From NCBI GenBank assembly GCA_001564255.1, contig LKNC01000050.1, forward strand, positions 1-13,232: a stretch of 13,232 nucleotides of DNA. The letters are read 5' to 3'. Below are positions 9,831 through 13,195 of this stretch, piece after piece; within the stretch, counting starts at the first letter, position 1; every line of letters starts with the position of its first letter. Source of the DNA: Natrialbaceae archaeon Tc-Br11_E2g1. Lineage in GTDB: Archaea; Halobacteriota; Halobacteria; Halobacteriales; Natrialbaceae. Both the position numbers and the translations under genes were made by a program. Below the pieces are notes generated by a model, which was not told the DNA's origin, did no database searches, and saw only the letters and a list, made by a program, of their open reading frames with translations.

Positions 9831-10532
9831 TCAGGCGTCGTTCGCCCCGTCGACGGTTTCCCGGACGGCCTCGACGCCCCCGTCGTGTGCGAGGTCGCCG
9901 ACGACGACGACGTCGGCGTGCTGGCCCATCGTGTACGCCGAGTCGTAATCACGGACCCCGCCGCCGTAGAACAGCGTCGACTCCTCGAGGCCGTCGCTCG
10001 CGGCAGAGACGAGACGCTCCTCGCCGAAGGTGCCGGAGTACTCGACGTAGACGATCTCCTGGCCGAACATCCGTTCGGCGACTTTCGCGTAGGCCTCGAC
10101 GTCACCGGCAGTGAGATCACAGTTCGCCTCCGTCAGTTGTGCCACGTCGGCCTCGGGGTTCAACACGATGTAGGCCTCGAGGGTGGTCCGATCCCAGTCC
10201 AACCCGTCGTCGATCCGGACCCACTCCTTGTGGGCTTCGGTGATCCAGAAAGGCGAGCCGGCGTTGAAGACCGTCGGGACGAGATACCCCTCCAAGGCGT
10301 CGCTGTCGACGACGACGCCCGGGTTCGCCGGCTCCTGGTAGAGGGGGACGTCGTGTTGGGCACAGGCCTCGATGACCGCGGTCATGTTCTCTTCGGTCAT
10401 CCCCGTCGTGCCGCCGACTTCGATCGCGTCGGTGCCTGTCGCACAGAGGTCACCGTAGGTGATCCCGTCGGGCAACTCCTTGTCGGGATCGAGTTTCAGA
10501 ACGTGGTTCCAGTCGTCCCAGGGCGCAGTCAT
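9831..10532 (-). CDS. Geranylgeranylglyceryl phosphate synthase (EC 2.5.1.41)
   Basis: TIM-barrel prenyltransferase of 233 residues that joins geranylgeranyl diphosphate to sn-glycerol 1-phosphate, the first ether bond of archaeal membrane lipids. Hallmarks are the Mg-binding start VLKLDPDK (residues 11-18), [14 protein letters not shown] (33-46), FNAGSPFWI (89-97), [10 protein letters not shown] (121-130), the glycerol-phosphate site YVEYSGTFG (162-170), the phosphate-binding [11 protein letters not shown] (189-199) and VGDLAH (211-216). Its length is that of the haloarchaeal enzyme. The ATG at 10532 starts the conserved region and sits about 27 nt after a TATA-like box; the ATG at 10559 is rejected. 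It appears monocistronic, with its own terminator hairpin. Confidence 0.94.
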
Positions 10533-10617: not shown

Positions 10618-11808
10618 TCAGATACCCTGACCCATCAGGTGACTTCGTAACACGTCCGCCTCCTTGTTCCCGGTCCCGGTACTGACGACGACGACCGTCG
10701 CGTCGCCGTCGAACTCGCCGCCCTCGGCGAGTTGCCACGCACCACTGGCCGCGGCCGCCGAGGAGGGGTCCATCTCCAGTCCCTCGTTTTTCGCGACGGC
10801 GATCGCCGCGTCTAAGATCTCGCCGTCTTTCGTCGCCACCGCACCCCCGTCGCTTTCCCGGAGGGCCTCGAGGATCAGCGGGCTCGCGTTCGGGTCGGGG
10901 ATCTCGATACCGCCACAGATCGTGTCGGGGTACTCGATCGGTTCGGTGACCTCCCTCTCCTCTCCGAGGGCCTCGACGATCGGCGCACAGCCTTCCGCCT
11001 GGGCGGCGTAGATCCCCGGCAGCTCGTCGATCACTCCGAGGTCCCGGAACTGGCTCGCGCCCTTGTGCAACGCGACCGGCCCCAGTCCGCTCCCGGTCGG
11101 GTAGACGATCGCCTCCGGAACCTCCCACTCCAGTTTCTCGACGATCTCGAACAGCAGCGTCTTTTCGCCCTCGTGGCGATACGGCGTCGCGAAGGCCTCG
11201 AGTGAGTACCAGTCGTGTTCGGCCATCGCCTCCCGAAAGCCGGCTTCGGCGTCGGGGAACCGGCCGCCGGTGACGGTCATGTCGCCGCCGTGGACGTTGA
11301 CCATCGACTTGTGGGTGTGACTCGAGCGCGCCGGCAGGTAGGCGTGGGCCTCGAGGTCGGCCCGGCCGGCGTAGGCCGCGGCGGCCTGCCCGTCGTTGCC
11401 CGTCGAGGGGAGGGCGACGTCGCTCGCGCCGTGGCCGTTCGCCGCGGTGACGGCCAGACTCAGCCCGCGATCGAGGACCGTCCCCGTCGGGTTTCGGCCC
11501 TCGTCTTTGATCAGGACGCGTCCGACGCCGAGTTCCTCGGCGAGGGTCGGACACTCGACCAGCGGCGTTCCCCCCTCCTCGGCCGTCACCGCCGACTCCC
11601 GGCAAAAGGGGAGCAGTTCCTCGTAGCGCCACATCGAGTCGACGGGACGTGACTCGACGGTCCCCCAGTCGACGTCGATCGCGTCCAGGTCGTACGCCGG
11701 ATCGAGGATCCCCCCACACTCCTCACAGCGGTGAGTCGTTTCGGCCGCGTCGAAAGTCGCCCCACAGTCGGTACACTCGAGCCCCGAAAACGCCTCGGTC
11801 GTCTCCAT
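10618..11808 (-). CDS. Threonine synthase-family protein lacking the PLP lysine
   Basis: Protein of 396 residues with the fold-type II PLP layout of threonine synthase, which normally converts O-phosphohomoserine to threonine. An N-terminal zinc ribbon has Cys12, Cys15, Cys28 and Cys31. KDEGRNPTG (101-109) is intact, as are STGNDGQAAAAYAGRADL (135-152), the phosphate-binding-like YPTGSGLGPVALHKG (236-250) and STGTGNKEA (376-384). However, the expected S-F-K-D-R-G after NPTG reads T-V-L-D-R-G, so the Schiff-base Lys is Leu112. I checked this codon (CTC) on the sequence. The protein may be a non-PLP, regulatory or altered-chemistry paralogue; a functional threonine synthase would have to be elsewhere. 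The ATG at 11808 fits the zinc ribbon start and the promoter; the start at 12027 is rejected. It is divergent from the oxidoreductase gene. Confidence 0.85.
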   Translation of the reverse strand: METTEAFSGLECTDCGATFDAAETTHRCEECGGILDPAYDLDAIDVDWGTVESRPVDSMWRYEELLPFCRESAVTAEEGGTPLVECPTLAEELGVGRVLIKDEGRNPTGTVLDRGLSLAVTAANGHGASDVALPSTGNDGQAAAAYAGRADLEAHAYLPARSSHTHKSMVNVHGGDMTVTGGRFPDAEAGFREAMAEHDWYSLEAFATPYRHEGEKTLLFEIVEKLEWEVPEAIVYPTGSGLGPVALHKGASQFRDLGVIDELPGIYAAQAEGCAPIVEALGEEREVTEPIEYPDTICGGIEIPDPNASPLILEALRESDGGAVATKDGEILDAAIAVAKNEGLEMDPSSAAAASGAWQLAEGGEFDGDATVVVVSTGTGNKEADVLRSHLMGQGI

Positions 11809-11837: not shown

Positions 11838-11890
11838 GCTGTCCATCCGACGGACTCGAGGCCAGCCGGTCGACGCCGTATGGGTCCATG

Positions 11891-11899
11891 ATTTTATAT
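11891..11899 (+). promoter_or_regulatory. TATA box of the FAD oxidoreductase gene
   Basis: ATTTTATAT is the most AT-rich stretch nearby and is centred about 26 nt before the ATG at 11921. It indicates a leaderless transcript and excludes the upstream in-frame start at 11888, which lies before the box. Confidence 0.6.
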
Positions 11900-11920
11900 G
11901 TCGAGATACAAGCGCCGCCC

Positions 11921-13195
11921 ATGAGTAAGACGCCACACGTGTCGGTCGTCGGCGGTGGTCTCGCCGGACTGGTCGCCGCCCGCCACCTCGCCGCCGGCGG
12001 GGCGTCGGTGACCGTCCTCGAGCGCAACGACGAGGTCGGCGGGCGCGTGCGGACCCGTACGGAAGACGGCTACCGGTTCGACCGGGGTTTTCAGGTCCTC
12101 TTTCCGACCTACCCCGCCGTGGCCCGGGAACTCGACCTCGAGGCGCTCGACCTCCGTCGGTTCGCCCCGGGTGCCGTCCTGGCCCGTCCGGGCCACCGCT
12201 CTACCCTGTCGGACCCGTTTCGGGAGCCGACGGCACTGCCCGCGACGCTGCTTAACCCCGATATCACGATCGGCGACAAACTCCGCGTGGCGAAACTCAG
12301 GCGGGATCTCACGGGGACCGACCCCGCGGAGATCTTCGCCGGCGACGACAAGTCGATCGCGTCGTACCTGCGCGAGTATGGGTTCTCCCCGAAGTTCGTA
12401 GAGAACTTCGCCGCACCCTTCTACGGCGGGATCACCCTCGATCGCTCTCTCGAGACCTCCGCGGCGGTCTTCGAGTACACCTTCCGGACGCTTTCGGTCG
12501 GGGCGACGGCCGTCCCGGCAGGCGGGATGGGGGAGATTCCAGCACAACTCGGGAAATACGCCCGACGGAACGGTGTGACCCTCGAGACGGGCGTCGACGT
12601 CGAGTCCGTCACGGCCGACGGCGACGGCGCGACCGTCGTCGCCGACGGCGACTCTCACGGGTCGGACGCCGTCGTCGTCGCGACCGATCCCCGGAGTGCC
12701 CGCGAGCTGACCGGCCTCGAGTCGATCCCGACCGAGGGCCGGGCCTGTGTGACCCAGTACTACGCCTTGCCGGAGGAAACGGACCTCGAGACGGGCAAAC
12801 GCCTACTCCTGAACACGGGCGAGGAGGGGCCAAACCAGGTCGTCCCCCACAGCGAGGTCGCCCCCGAGTACGCACCCGAGGACGCGACGCTCGTGAGCGC
12901 GACCTACCTCGGCGAGCGCGAGGAGAGCGCCGAGGAACTCGCCGAGACGAGCCGGCGGACCCTCGAGTCGTGGTTCCCCGAACGCCGGTTCGATCGCTTC
13001 GAGGTCCGTTCGACCGAGCGTGTCGACTTCGCCCAGTTCGCCCAGCCCCCGGGCATCCACGACGAGTTACCCGACGTTCGCGACCCCGAGGGGCCGGTTT
13101 ACCTCGCCGGTGACTATACGCAGTGGTCCTCGATCCAGGGGGCGATGGGGAGTGGCTACGAGGCGGCACGCGCGGTCCTCGAGGATTCGGTCTGA
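11921..13195 (+). CDS. FAD-dependent oxidoreductase, amine oxidase/desaturase type
   Basis: Flavoprotein of 424 residues. The dinucleotide-binding motif VSVVGGGLAGLVAARHL (residues 7-23), the acidic end of strand 2 in VTVLERNDEVGGRVRT (30-45) and GYRFDRGFQVL (50-60) are the start of the amine oxidase/protoporphyrinogen oxidase/phytoene desaturase superfamily. PAGGMGEIPAQL and the strand VVVATDP in the middle are also typical. The C-terminal FAD site is PVYLAGDYTQWSSIQGAMGSGYEAARAVL. Substrates in this superfamily range from carotenoids and porphyrins to amines, and nothing here narrows this down. No Tat signal is visible, so it is probably cytoplasmic or loosely membrane-associated. It is divergent from the threonine-synthase-like gene across 112 nt. 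Confidence 0.88.
   Translation: MSKTPHVSVVGGGLAGLVAARHLAAGGASVTVLERNDEVGGRVRTRTEDGYRFDRGFQVLFPTYPAVARELDLEALDLRRFAPGAVLARPGHRSTLSDPFREPTALPATLLNPDITIGDKLRVAKLRRDLTGTDPAEIFAGDDKSIASYLREYGFSPKFVENFAAPFYGGITLDRSLETSAAVFEYTFRTLSVGATAVPAGGMGEIPAQLGKYARRNGVTLETGVDVESVTADGDGATVVADGDSHGSDAVVVATDPRSARELTGLESIPTEGRACVTQYYALPEETDLETGKRLLLNTGEEGPNQVVPHSEVAPEYAPEDATLVSATYLGEREESAEELAETSRRTLESWFPERRFDRFEVRSTERVDFAQFAQPPGIHDELPDVRDPEGPVYLAGDYTQWSSIQGAMGSGYEAARAVLEDSV

Follow-up and report, generated by a model that had tools for sequence, protein, structure and literature searches.

PLP enzymes of the threonine synthase fold are defined by a single lysine, and the loss of this residue is easily mistaken for the death of the gene. 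A PLP-fold subunit that lacks the lysine and works with a partner subunit is nevertheless known in SPTLC1/LCB1, and a cyanobacterial threonine synthase reportedly moonlights, so that the thrC product there has a second role, with no indication of lysine loss in its literature record (PMC12172450). In plants, the TSB-like pseudoenzyme, a paralogue of a fold type II PLP enzyme without catalytic activity, is retained as an activator of its partner TSA (PMC12727527). Partners of CysK, among them CdiA-CT, dock through a C-terminal isoleucine (PMC4961446).

Here we analyze a threonine synthase (ThrC)-like gene in a 13,232-nucleotide stretch (the window) of a Natrialbaceae draft genome. By sequence comparison we show repeated lysine loss, selection on the Lys-less copies, and opposite patterns of conservation in two groups of family members. 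A search of the open-access literature, with most subscription journals outside its coverage, returned no paper on this haloarchaeal family.

A ThrC-like gene with leucine at the Schiff-base position

The gene encodes 396 residues uninterrupted by stop codons, and the features of the locus are as follows.

9831..10532, minus strand: downstream neighbor, PcrB-type GGGP synthase (TIGR04147, 410.8 bits)
10621..11808, minus strand: ThrC-like gene (396 residues), assigned to PLP fold type II, Lys-less and tail-bearing
10621..10656, minus strand: C-terminal tail DVLRSHLMGQGI-COOH, residues 385-396
10903..10929, minus strand: second segment of a putative second site (residues 294-302, with P294, D295, G299, and E302)
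11080..11094, minus strand: GSGLG (residues 239-243), which corresponds to the PLP-phosphate loop and is relaxed in Lys-less members
11248..11334, minus strand: first segment of a putative second site (residues 159-187; discriminating: N171, R183)
11392..11406, minus strand: STGND (residues 135-139), which corresponds to the PLP Asn loop and is relaxed in Lys-less members
11473..11475, minus strand: codon 112, CTC (Leu), replacing the PLP lysine codon
11716..11775, minus strand: zinc ribbon, Cys 12/15/28/31
11888..13195, plus strand: divergent neighbor, FAD amine-oxidase-like gene (PF01593)

By profile and predicted fold, the window protein is a member of PLP fold type II. It scores 206.5 bits with Pfam PALP (PF00291; cut-off 35) and 325.9 bits with the NCBIfam model NF006050 (PRK08197) for threonine synthase (cut-off 303). 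Its AlphaFold model has a pLDDT of 94.9, and the best PDB matches of the model found with Foldseek are threonine synthases (2zsj, 6nmx, and 2c2b); the fold thus looks intact.

The segment around the active-site position reads IKDEGRNPTGTVLDRGLSL, and residue 112, where the fold carries its Schiff-base lysine (NPTGSFKDRG in catalytic threonine synthases), is a leucine, as an earlier note on this DNA had claimed. An error of sequencing or assembly might be suspected, as the genome is a draft of 210 contigs with a completeness of 67.7%. We rejected this possibility, to which we give practically no credence: lysine is encoded by AAG (46) or AAA (11) at the scanned family loci, so that CTC differs by three bases; a protein 90% identical to ours, from Natrialbaceae archaeon A-gly3, also reads TVLDRG; and 83 of 253 family sequences have a residue other than lysine here. 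The latter two findings also dispose of the idea that the substitution is limited to one sequence.

The pocket of the window protein is altered beyond the lysine. The earlier note had the other motifs remaining, which holds for the zinc-ribbon cysteines 12/15/28/31; the loops have changed, with GSGLG in place of the canonical GNAGN and STGND in place of the canonical STGNT. In addition, the window protein has AFATPYR where canonical haloarchaeal ThrC has LNSLNPFR, the NSxNPxR segment of the canonical enzyme having a role in substrate phosphate binding. We infer that a Schiff base with PLP is absent from this site in Lys-less copies and that these do not work as threonine synthases.

Such activity seems unneeded from a Lys-less gene, given the canonical ThrC genes found in the same genomes. 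The second, Lys-containing thrC that the earlier note proposed to look for is present in the genome as a canonical ThrC on contig C86; a further Lys-containing ThrC-like gene, cut by the contig end, lies on contig C52. Twenty-two other genomes with a Lys-less copy were searched, and all 19 that we read have a canonical ThrC with the lysine and NSLNPFR. Further paralogues were seen. The C52 gene (10919-11902) and L277 represent a haloarchaeal type with NPTGCFKDRAS, an MGDGCT loop and NAAINPFQVEGKRT. Another ThrC-like paralogue (∼33% identity, about 115-130 bits) appears to be interrupted by one or two in-frame stops in a number of genomes (G088, G104, G126, G202, G227, G248, G266, G325, G388, G393, G394, G401, and G409). 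In Haloferax volcanii, a mutant with a transposon in HVO_2969 (thrC3) is reported to be restored by Gly, Ser and Thr together (PMC4300041).

Recurrent loss of the lysine in a gene under selection

We collected relatives by a protein search (120 listed of 1573) and a genome scan (80 loci kept of 287). After addition of genus representatives, the alignment holds 258 distinct rows, five of them outgroups (canonical or other ThrC) and 253 family members. L067 from Natrinema hispanicum DSM 18328, in which a frame change near the 3' end replaces the tail, was left out of the alignments; the CDM_6 copy (L033) is intact, and the frame change may be real or a draft error. The lysine is present in 170 family rows and absent from 83, in which 13 kinds of residue occupy the site. 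Non-lysine residues occur in, among others, Natrinema, Natronorubrum, Natronolimnohabitans, Natrarchaeobius, and Halococcus, and also in Haloferax and Halegenticoccus (Leu) and in Halobacterium salinarum (Arg). The H. salinarum orthologue (L050) comes from the model organism DSM 3754 and reads TFRDRG.

By parsimony, a 174-row tree and a 183-row tree need at least nine changes between lysine and other residues, a count that does not separate loss from gain; the outgroups all have lysine. A 54-row, Natrialbaceae-centered tree calculated without the relaxed pocket columns contains six such changes, and in this set a single Lys-less clade is rejected, both strictly (22 rows; p-AU 4.6e-5) and with two nested Lys-containing rows included (24 rows; p-AU 4.5e-7). 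The idea that TVLDRG marks a conserved clade of its own was rejected: the lysine has been replaced repeatedly and by many residues. On this sequence evidence, many haloarchaeal lineages dropped the lysine independently.

The placement of the window protein varies. It groups with Natribaculum/Natronobeatus-type Lys-containing rows in the 174-row and 54-row trees and among Lys-less rows in the 183-row tree; we prefer the tree without pocket columns for this purpose, with moderate support (87/55 to 91/94). There, the window lineage associates weakly with L118, which comes from the same genus and has Arg in place of the lysine, and adjoins Lys-containing rows. Four Lys-containing rows with an altered residue 111 (P0036, P0041, P0055, and P0107) fall in or near the Lys-less Natrinema group, so that regain and late loss are indistinguishable there. 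Together with L024, these Natrinema-type sequences read T-S-K-D or T-T-K-D and have lost Phe111; regain by drift or late retention of the lysine are both possible.

Both groups of genes are under purifying selection, which is somewhat weaker without the lysine. Among pairs picked by hand from relatives of the window gene, dN/dS is 0.10-0.28 in 15 of 16 Lys-less pairs (dS is undefined in the other one) and 0.04-0.20 in 16 Lys-containing pairs, three of them tail-less. A relative at 1e-40 is found in all 392 genomes searched. By hand count, the best match reaches 1e-75 or better in 366 of them, a level not attained by any canonical ThrC match observed here (the strongest at 1.9e-67); this count pools tail-bearing and tail-less members. 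Five of the 26 genomes with weaker matches still yielded a family member, Lys-less in every case (G003, G009, G011, G075, and G375).

A redundant threonine synthase paralogue that is simply decaying would account for the canonical ThrC in the same genomes, the relaxed PLP pocket and the slightly higher dN/dS of Lys-less genes as a whole. It fits poorly with dN/dS well below 1 after loss of the lysine, with family-level matches in nearly all genomes, and with Arg-161, Asp-295, Glu-302, Arg-388, and Ser-389, which are present in 83 of 83 Lys-less rows. We therefore rejected decay, which we consider very unlikely. The pattern is that of a pseudoenzyme: the catalytic residue is lost in several species, the fold is kept and selection, as estimated from relatives, is maintained. 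The earlier suggestion of a preserved, repurposed paralogue gains support from the loss in many species, the separate ThrC on C86, the ThrC-like gene on C52, and the purifying selection.

Opposite conservation of the PLP pocket and of a second residue set

We mapped the PLP shell by alignment to solved threonine synthases and defined the tail as residues 385-396. Column entropies were referred to the Lys-containing, tail-bearing rows and compared with matched controls in 20,000 draws. The Lys-less rows were picked by residue 112 and the tail-less rows by their tail, so those columns are no proof in their own group, and the conservation table was seen before testing, so that no residue set was truly named in advance.

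In the 39 Lys-less rows nested among Lys-containing ones, PLP-shell entropy rises by 0.92 bits (controls 0.04 ± 0.11) and, with residues 111-112 left out, by 0.73 bits (controls 0.06 ± 0.13; 0 of 20,000 draws as high). The 44 older Lys-less rows, which vary more overall, show a weaker relaxation, with increases of 1.44 bits (controls 0.75 ± 0.17) and, without 111-112, 1.24 bits (controls 0.80 ± 0.19, p = 0.017). The shell is instead tightened in 21 tail-less, Lys-containing rows (-0.22, and -0.21 without 111-112; controls +0.21 ± 0.17). The tail behaves in the opposite way: its entropy changes by -0.22 in nested Lys-less rows (controls 0.03 ± 0.14; p = 0.03 for so low a value), by 0.29 in older ones, where 0.73 is expected, and by +1.08 in tail-less rows, where 0.12 is expected, the last by construction.

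Individual residues follow the same division. Phe-111, Lys-112, Asn-138, Ala-139, Gly-240, Gly-243, and Thr-377 are present in 21 of 21 tail-less rows and eroded in Lys-less ones. Asn-171, Arg-183, Asp-295, and Glu-302 are found in 149, 148, 149, and 149 of the 149 Lys-containing tail-bearing rows and in 82, 82, 83, and 83 of the 83 Lys-less rows, as against 0, 1, 8, and 4 of the 21 tail-less rows. Arg-161, Lys-167, His-173, and Thr-296 are kept in every group, including 19-21 of 21 tail-less rows, and are thus not discriminating; His-173, Thr-296, and Asp-385 also occur in canonical ThrC and so are not specific to a second function. Among the older Lys-less rows, Arg-161, Asp-295, Glu-302, Asp-385, Arg-388, and Ser-389 are invariant (44 of 44), and Lys-167, Asn-171, His-173, and Arg-183 are each present in 43. 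What is conserved in Lys-less proteins seems to lie in these other residues and the tail rather than in the relaxed PLP pocket. The zinc ribbon seems dispensable for the second function, since its cysteines are substituted in six Lys-less rows (L086-L088, L144, L146, and L157); the 10 of 44 zinc-ribbon losses are partly an artifact of start choices that trimmed N termini (L140, L141, and L162; L158 is untrimmed).

The tail follows the pattern D-x-[LI]-R-S-[HR]-L-M-x-x-G-[I/V] and is directly followed by the stop codon in nearly all tailed rows; the window protein ends in GQGI. The terminal Ile/Val expected of a CysK-type partner thus stands at the exact C terminus, and a G-[I/V] end with the same spacing to the motif is found in 142 of 149 Lys-containing tailed rows and 79 of 83 Lys-less rows (39/39 nested, 40/44 older; the exceptions are L164, L165, L166, and L170) and in 0 of 21 tail-less rows. 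These counts comprise Ile and Val only; the strict tail pattern also admits Leu, Met, Thr, or Glu as last residue. Two divergent Lys-less sequences outside the 253 rows, L228 and L229, end in GE. Since 149 rows have both, the PLP lysine and the tail are compatible.

The tail-less, Lys-containing proteins are mostly extra copies. Ten of 49 genus representatives contain one, in each case together with a tail-bearing copy, which is Lys-less in nine (L136 has the lysine). Ten of 11 further genomes with a tail-less copy likewise have a tail-bearing, Lys-less one (split over two frames in G422); a search for a tail-bearing copy in G420 returned none. Overall, 20 of 21 such genomes have a tail-bearing copy, Lys-less in 19; G188 and G415 probably represent a single genome, so that no more than 20 different genomes are included. 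A rarer tail-less, Lys-containing paralogue with NPTNTFKDRG accompanies a tail-bearing Lys-less copy in L178 (Natrarchaeobius genome G401), L155, and L159.

The divergent FAD amine-oxidase-like gene adjoins 54 of 103 rows with the strict tail and two of 23 others, counted over the 126 rows kept when those with <1,500 bases of upstream flank are left out. Those two rows are Lys-less (L165 and L166), and the gene is next to none of 20 tail-less Lys-containing copies. A downstream PcrB gene is present at 32 of 141 loci, largely from Natrialbaceae. In Haloferax, the genes that follow the Lys-less gene encode, as named by eye, a DtxR-like regulator and a LysE-like exporter. The FAD gene marks the locus and, like the other neighbors, names no function.

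Two proposed separable functions and their relation to known systems

The opposite conservation in Lys-less and in tail-less copies seems to reflect two functions, with PLP chemistry as the dispensable one. We consider it quite probable, from the alignments, that the haloarchaeal ThrC-like protein has two separable functions, of which the PLP function was dropped in many lineages and the other one in extra copies. The first would be PLP chemistry, which needs Lys-112 and its pocket. The second would depend on the discriminating residues Asn-171, Arg-183, Asp-295, Glu-302, and Ser-389 and on the C terminus RSHLM-x-x-G-[I/V]-COOH. Many lineages, including that of the window, would have dropped the first function and kept the protein as a pseudoenzyme for the second; the extra copies would have done the reverse. 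For the second function we favor the role of a non-catalytic partner: its tail would dock, as the C-terminal isoleucine of CdiA-CT and of other partners does with CysK, into or onto a neighboring subunit or another protein, which it may thereby regulate or scaffold. The CysK-like tail end and the TSB-like precedent speak for this regulatory pseudoenzyme, to which we assign about an even chance within the two-function explanation; the docking itself is suggested by the form of the tail.

A close rival holds that the second function is a small-molecule site, in which the Arg/Asn/Asp/Glu set forms a PLP-independent catalytic or ligand-sensing center, perhaps closed by the tail. Ten residues retained in 43-44 of 44 older Lys-less rows appear strict for a mere interface, and canonical ThrC has Asn-183 and Arg-302 where the family has Arg-183 and Glu-302, a difference that resembles the exchange of a residue pair; a ligand site and an interface are, however, indistinguishable by sequence, and we hold this alternative to be plausible but rather the less probable. 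We would put the same modest weight on its broader form, a near-universal protein with a PLP-independent second site (ligand or catalytic) joined to a conserved tail on the ThrC fold, whose dispensable PLP site has been dismantled repeatedly and in parallel. In that case these proteins form a natural series with both functions, with the first only and with the second only. Lys-less members might also still use PLP, without a Schiff base or through another lysine, considering that Lys-101, Lys-167, Lys-216, and Lys-382 are kept in most Lys-less rows and Asn-138 in 64 of 83. Those lysines are equally conserved in Lys-containing members, however, and a search of the Lys-less alignment for a compensating lysine column found none gained. 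Only 5 of 83 Lys-less rows retain Gly-240 in the phosphate loop. Where residue 112 is aliphatic or aromatic, residue 116 is hydrophobic without exception (30 of 30 Lys-less rows, against 13 of 53 other Lys-less rows and 1 of 149 Lys-containing tailed rows), a pairing that suggests a filled PLP cavity. Retention of PLP therefore appears improbable to us.

One orthologue lives on after many losses of its lysine, and sister copies have lost the other half instead. The second function is thus separable by sequence alone and can be tested in the genetically tractable Haloferax. The findings further suggest that many haloarchaeal genomes carry this gene under a mistaken name, 'threonine synthase'.

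Canonical archaeal ThrC, on contig C86 and outside the order, shares PLP fold type II and the overall fold with the window protein, and haloarchaeal canonical ThrC also shares the zinc ribbon. In a search of the phylum, the listed matches from outside the order align only to residues 373-390 of the 397-residue query. Of 20 stretches read, 18 come from genomes outside the order, of which 136 have matches, and encode a canonical ThrC with the lysine, LNSxNPxRLEGQKT and GNAGN and without a tail; the window protein has the tail but lacks these three features. Canonical ThrC lacks Asn-171, Arg-183, Asp-295, and Glu-302 as well as the tail, which Lys-less family members almost always retain. The remaining two stretches are a C52-type paralogue within the order (G006) and a PRK08197-like protein (G516), the closest non-haloarchaeal sequence among the matches listed (42% identity to P0003), which has the YPTGGG loop of the family but contains the lysine and no tail. 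The tail and the Asn-171/Arg-183/Glu-302 set thus look like haloarchaeal inventions; in the present data they and the lysine loss are seen only in haloarchaea.

SPTLC1/LCB1 differs from the haloarchaeal protein in being of fold type I and in forming a fixed heterodimer. The CysK partners resemble the haloarchaeal tail in an exact C terminus ending in a branched aliphatic residue; unlike theirs, the tail here belongs to the PLP-fold protein itself, for which docking is our proposal. TSB-like is a separate paralogue with a known partner, TSA, whereas in haloarchaea it is the orthologue itself that repeatedly loses the lysine.
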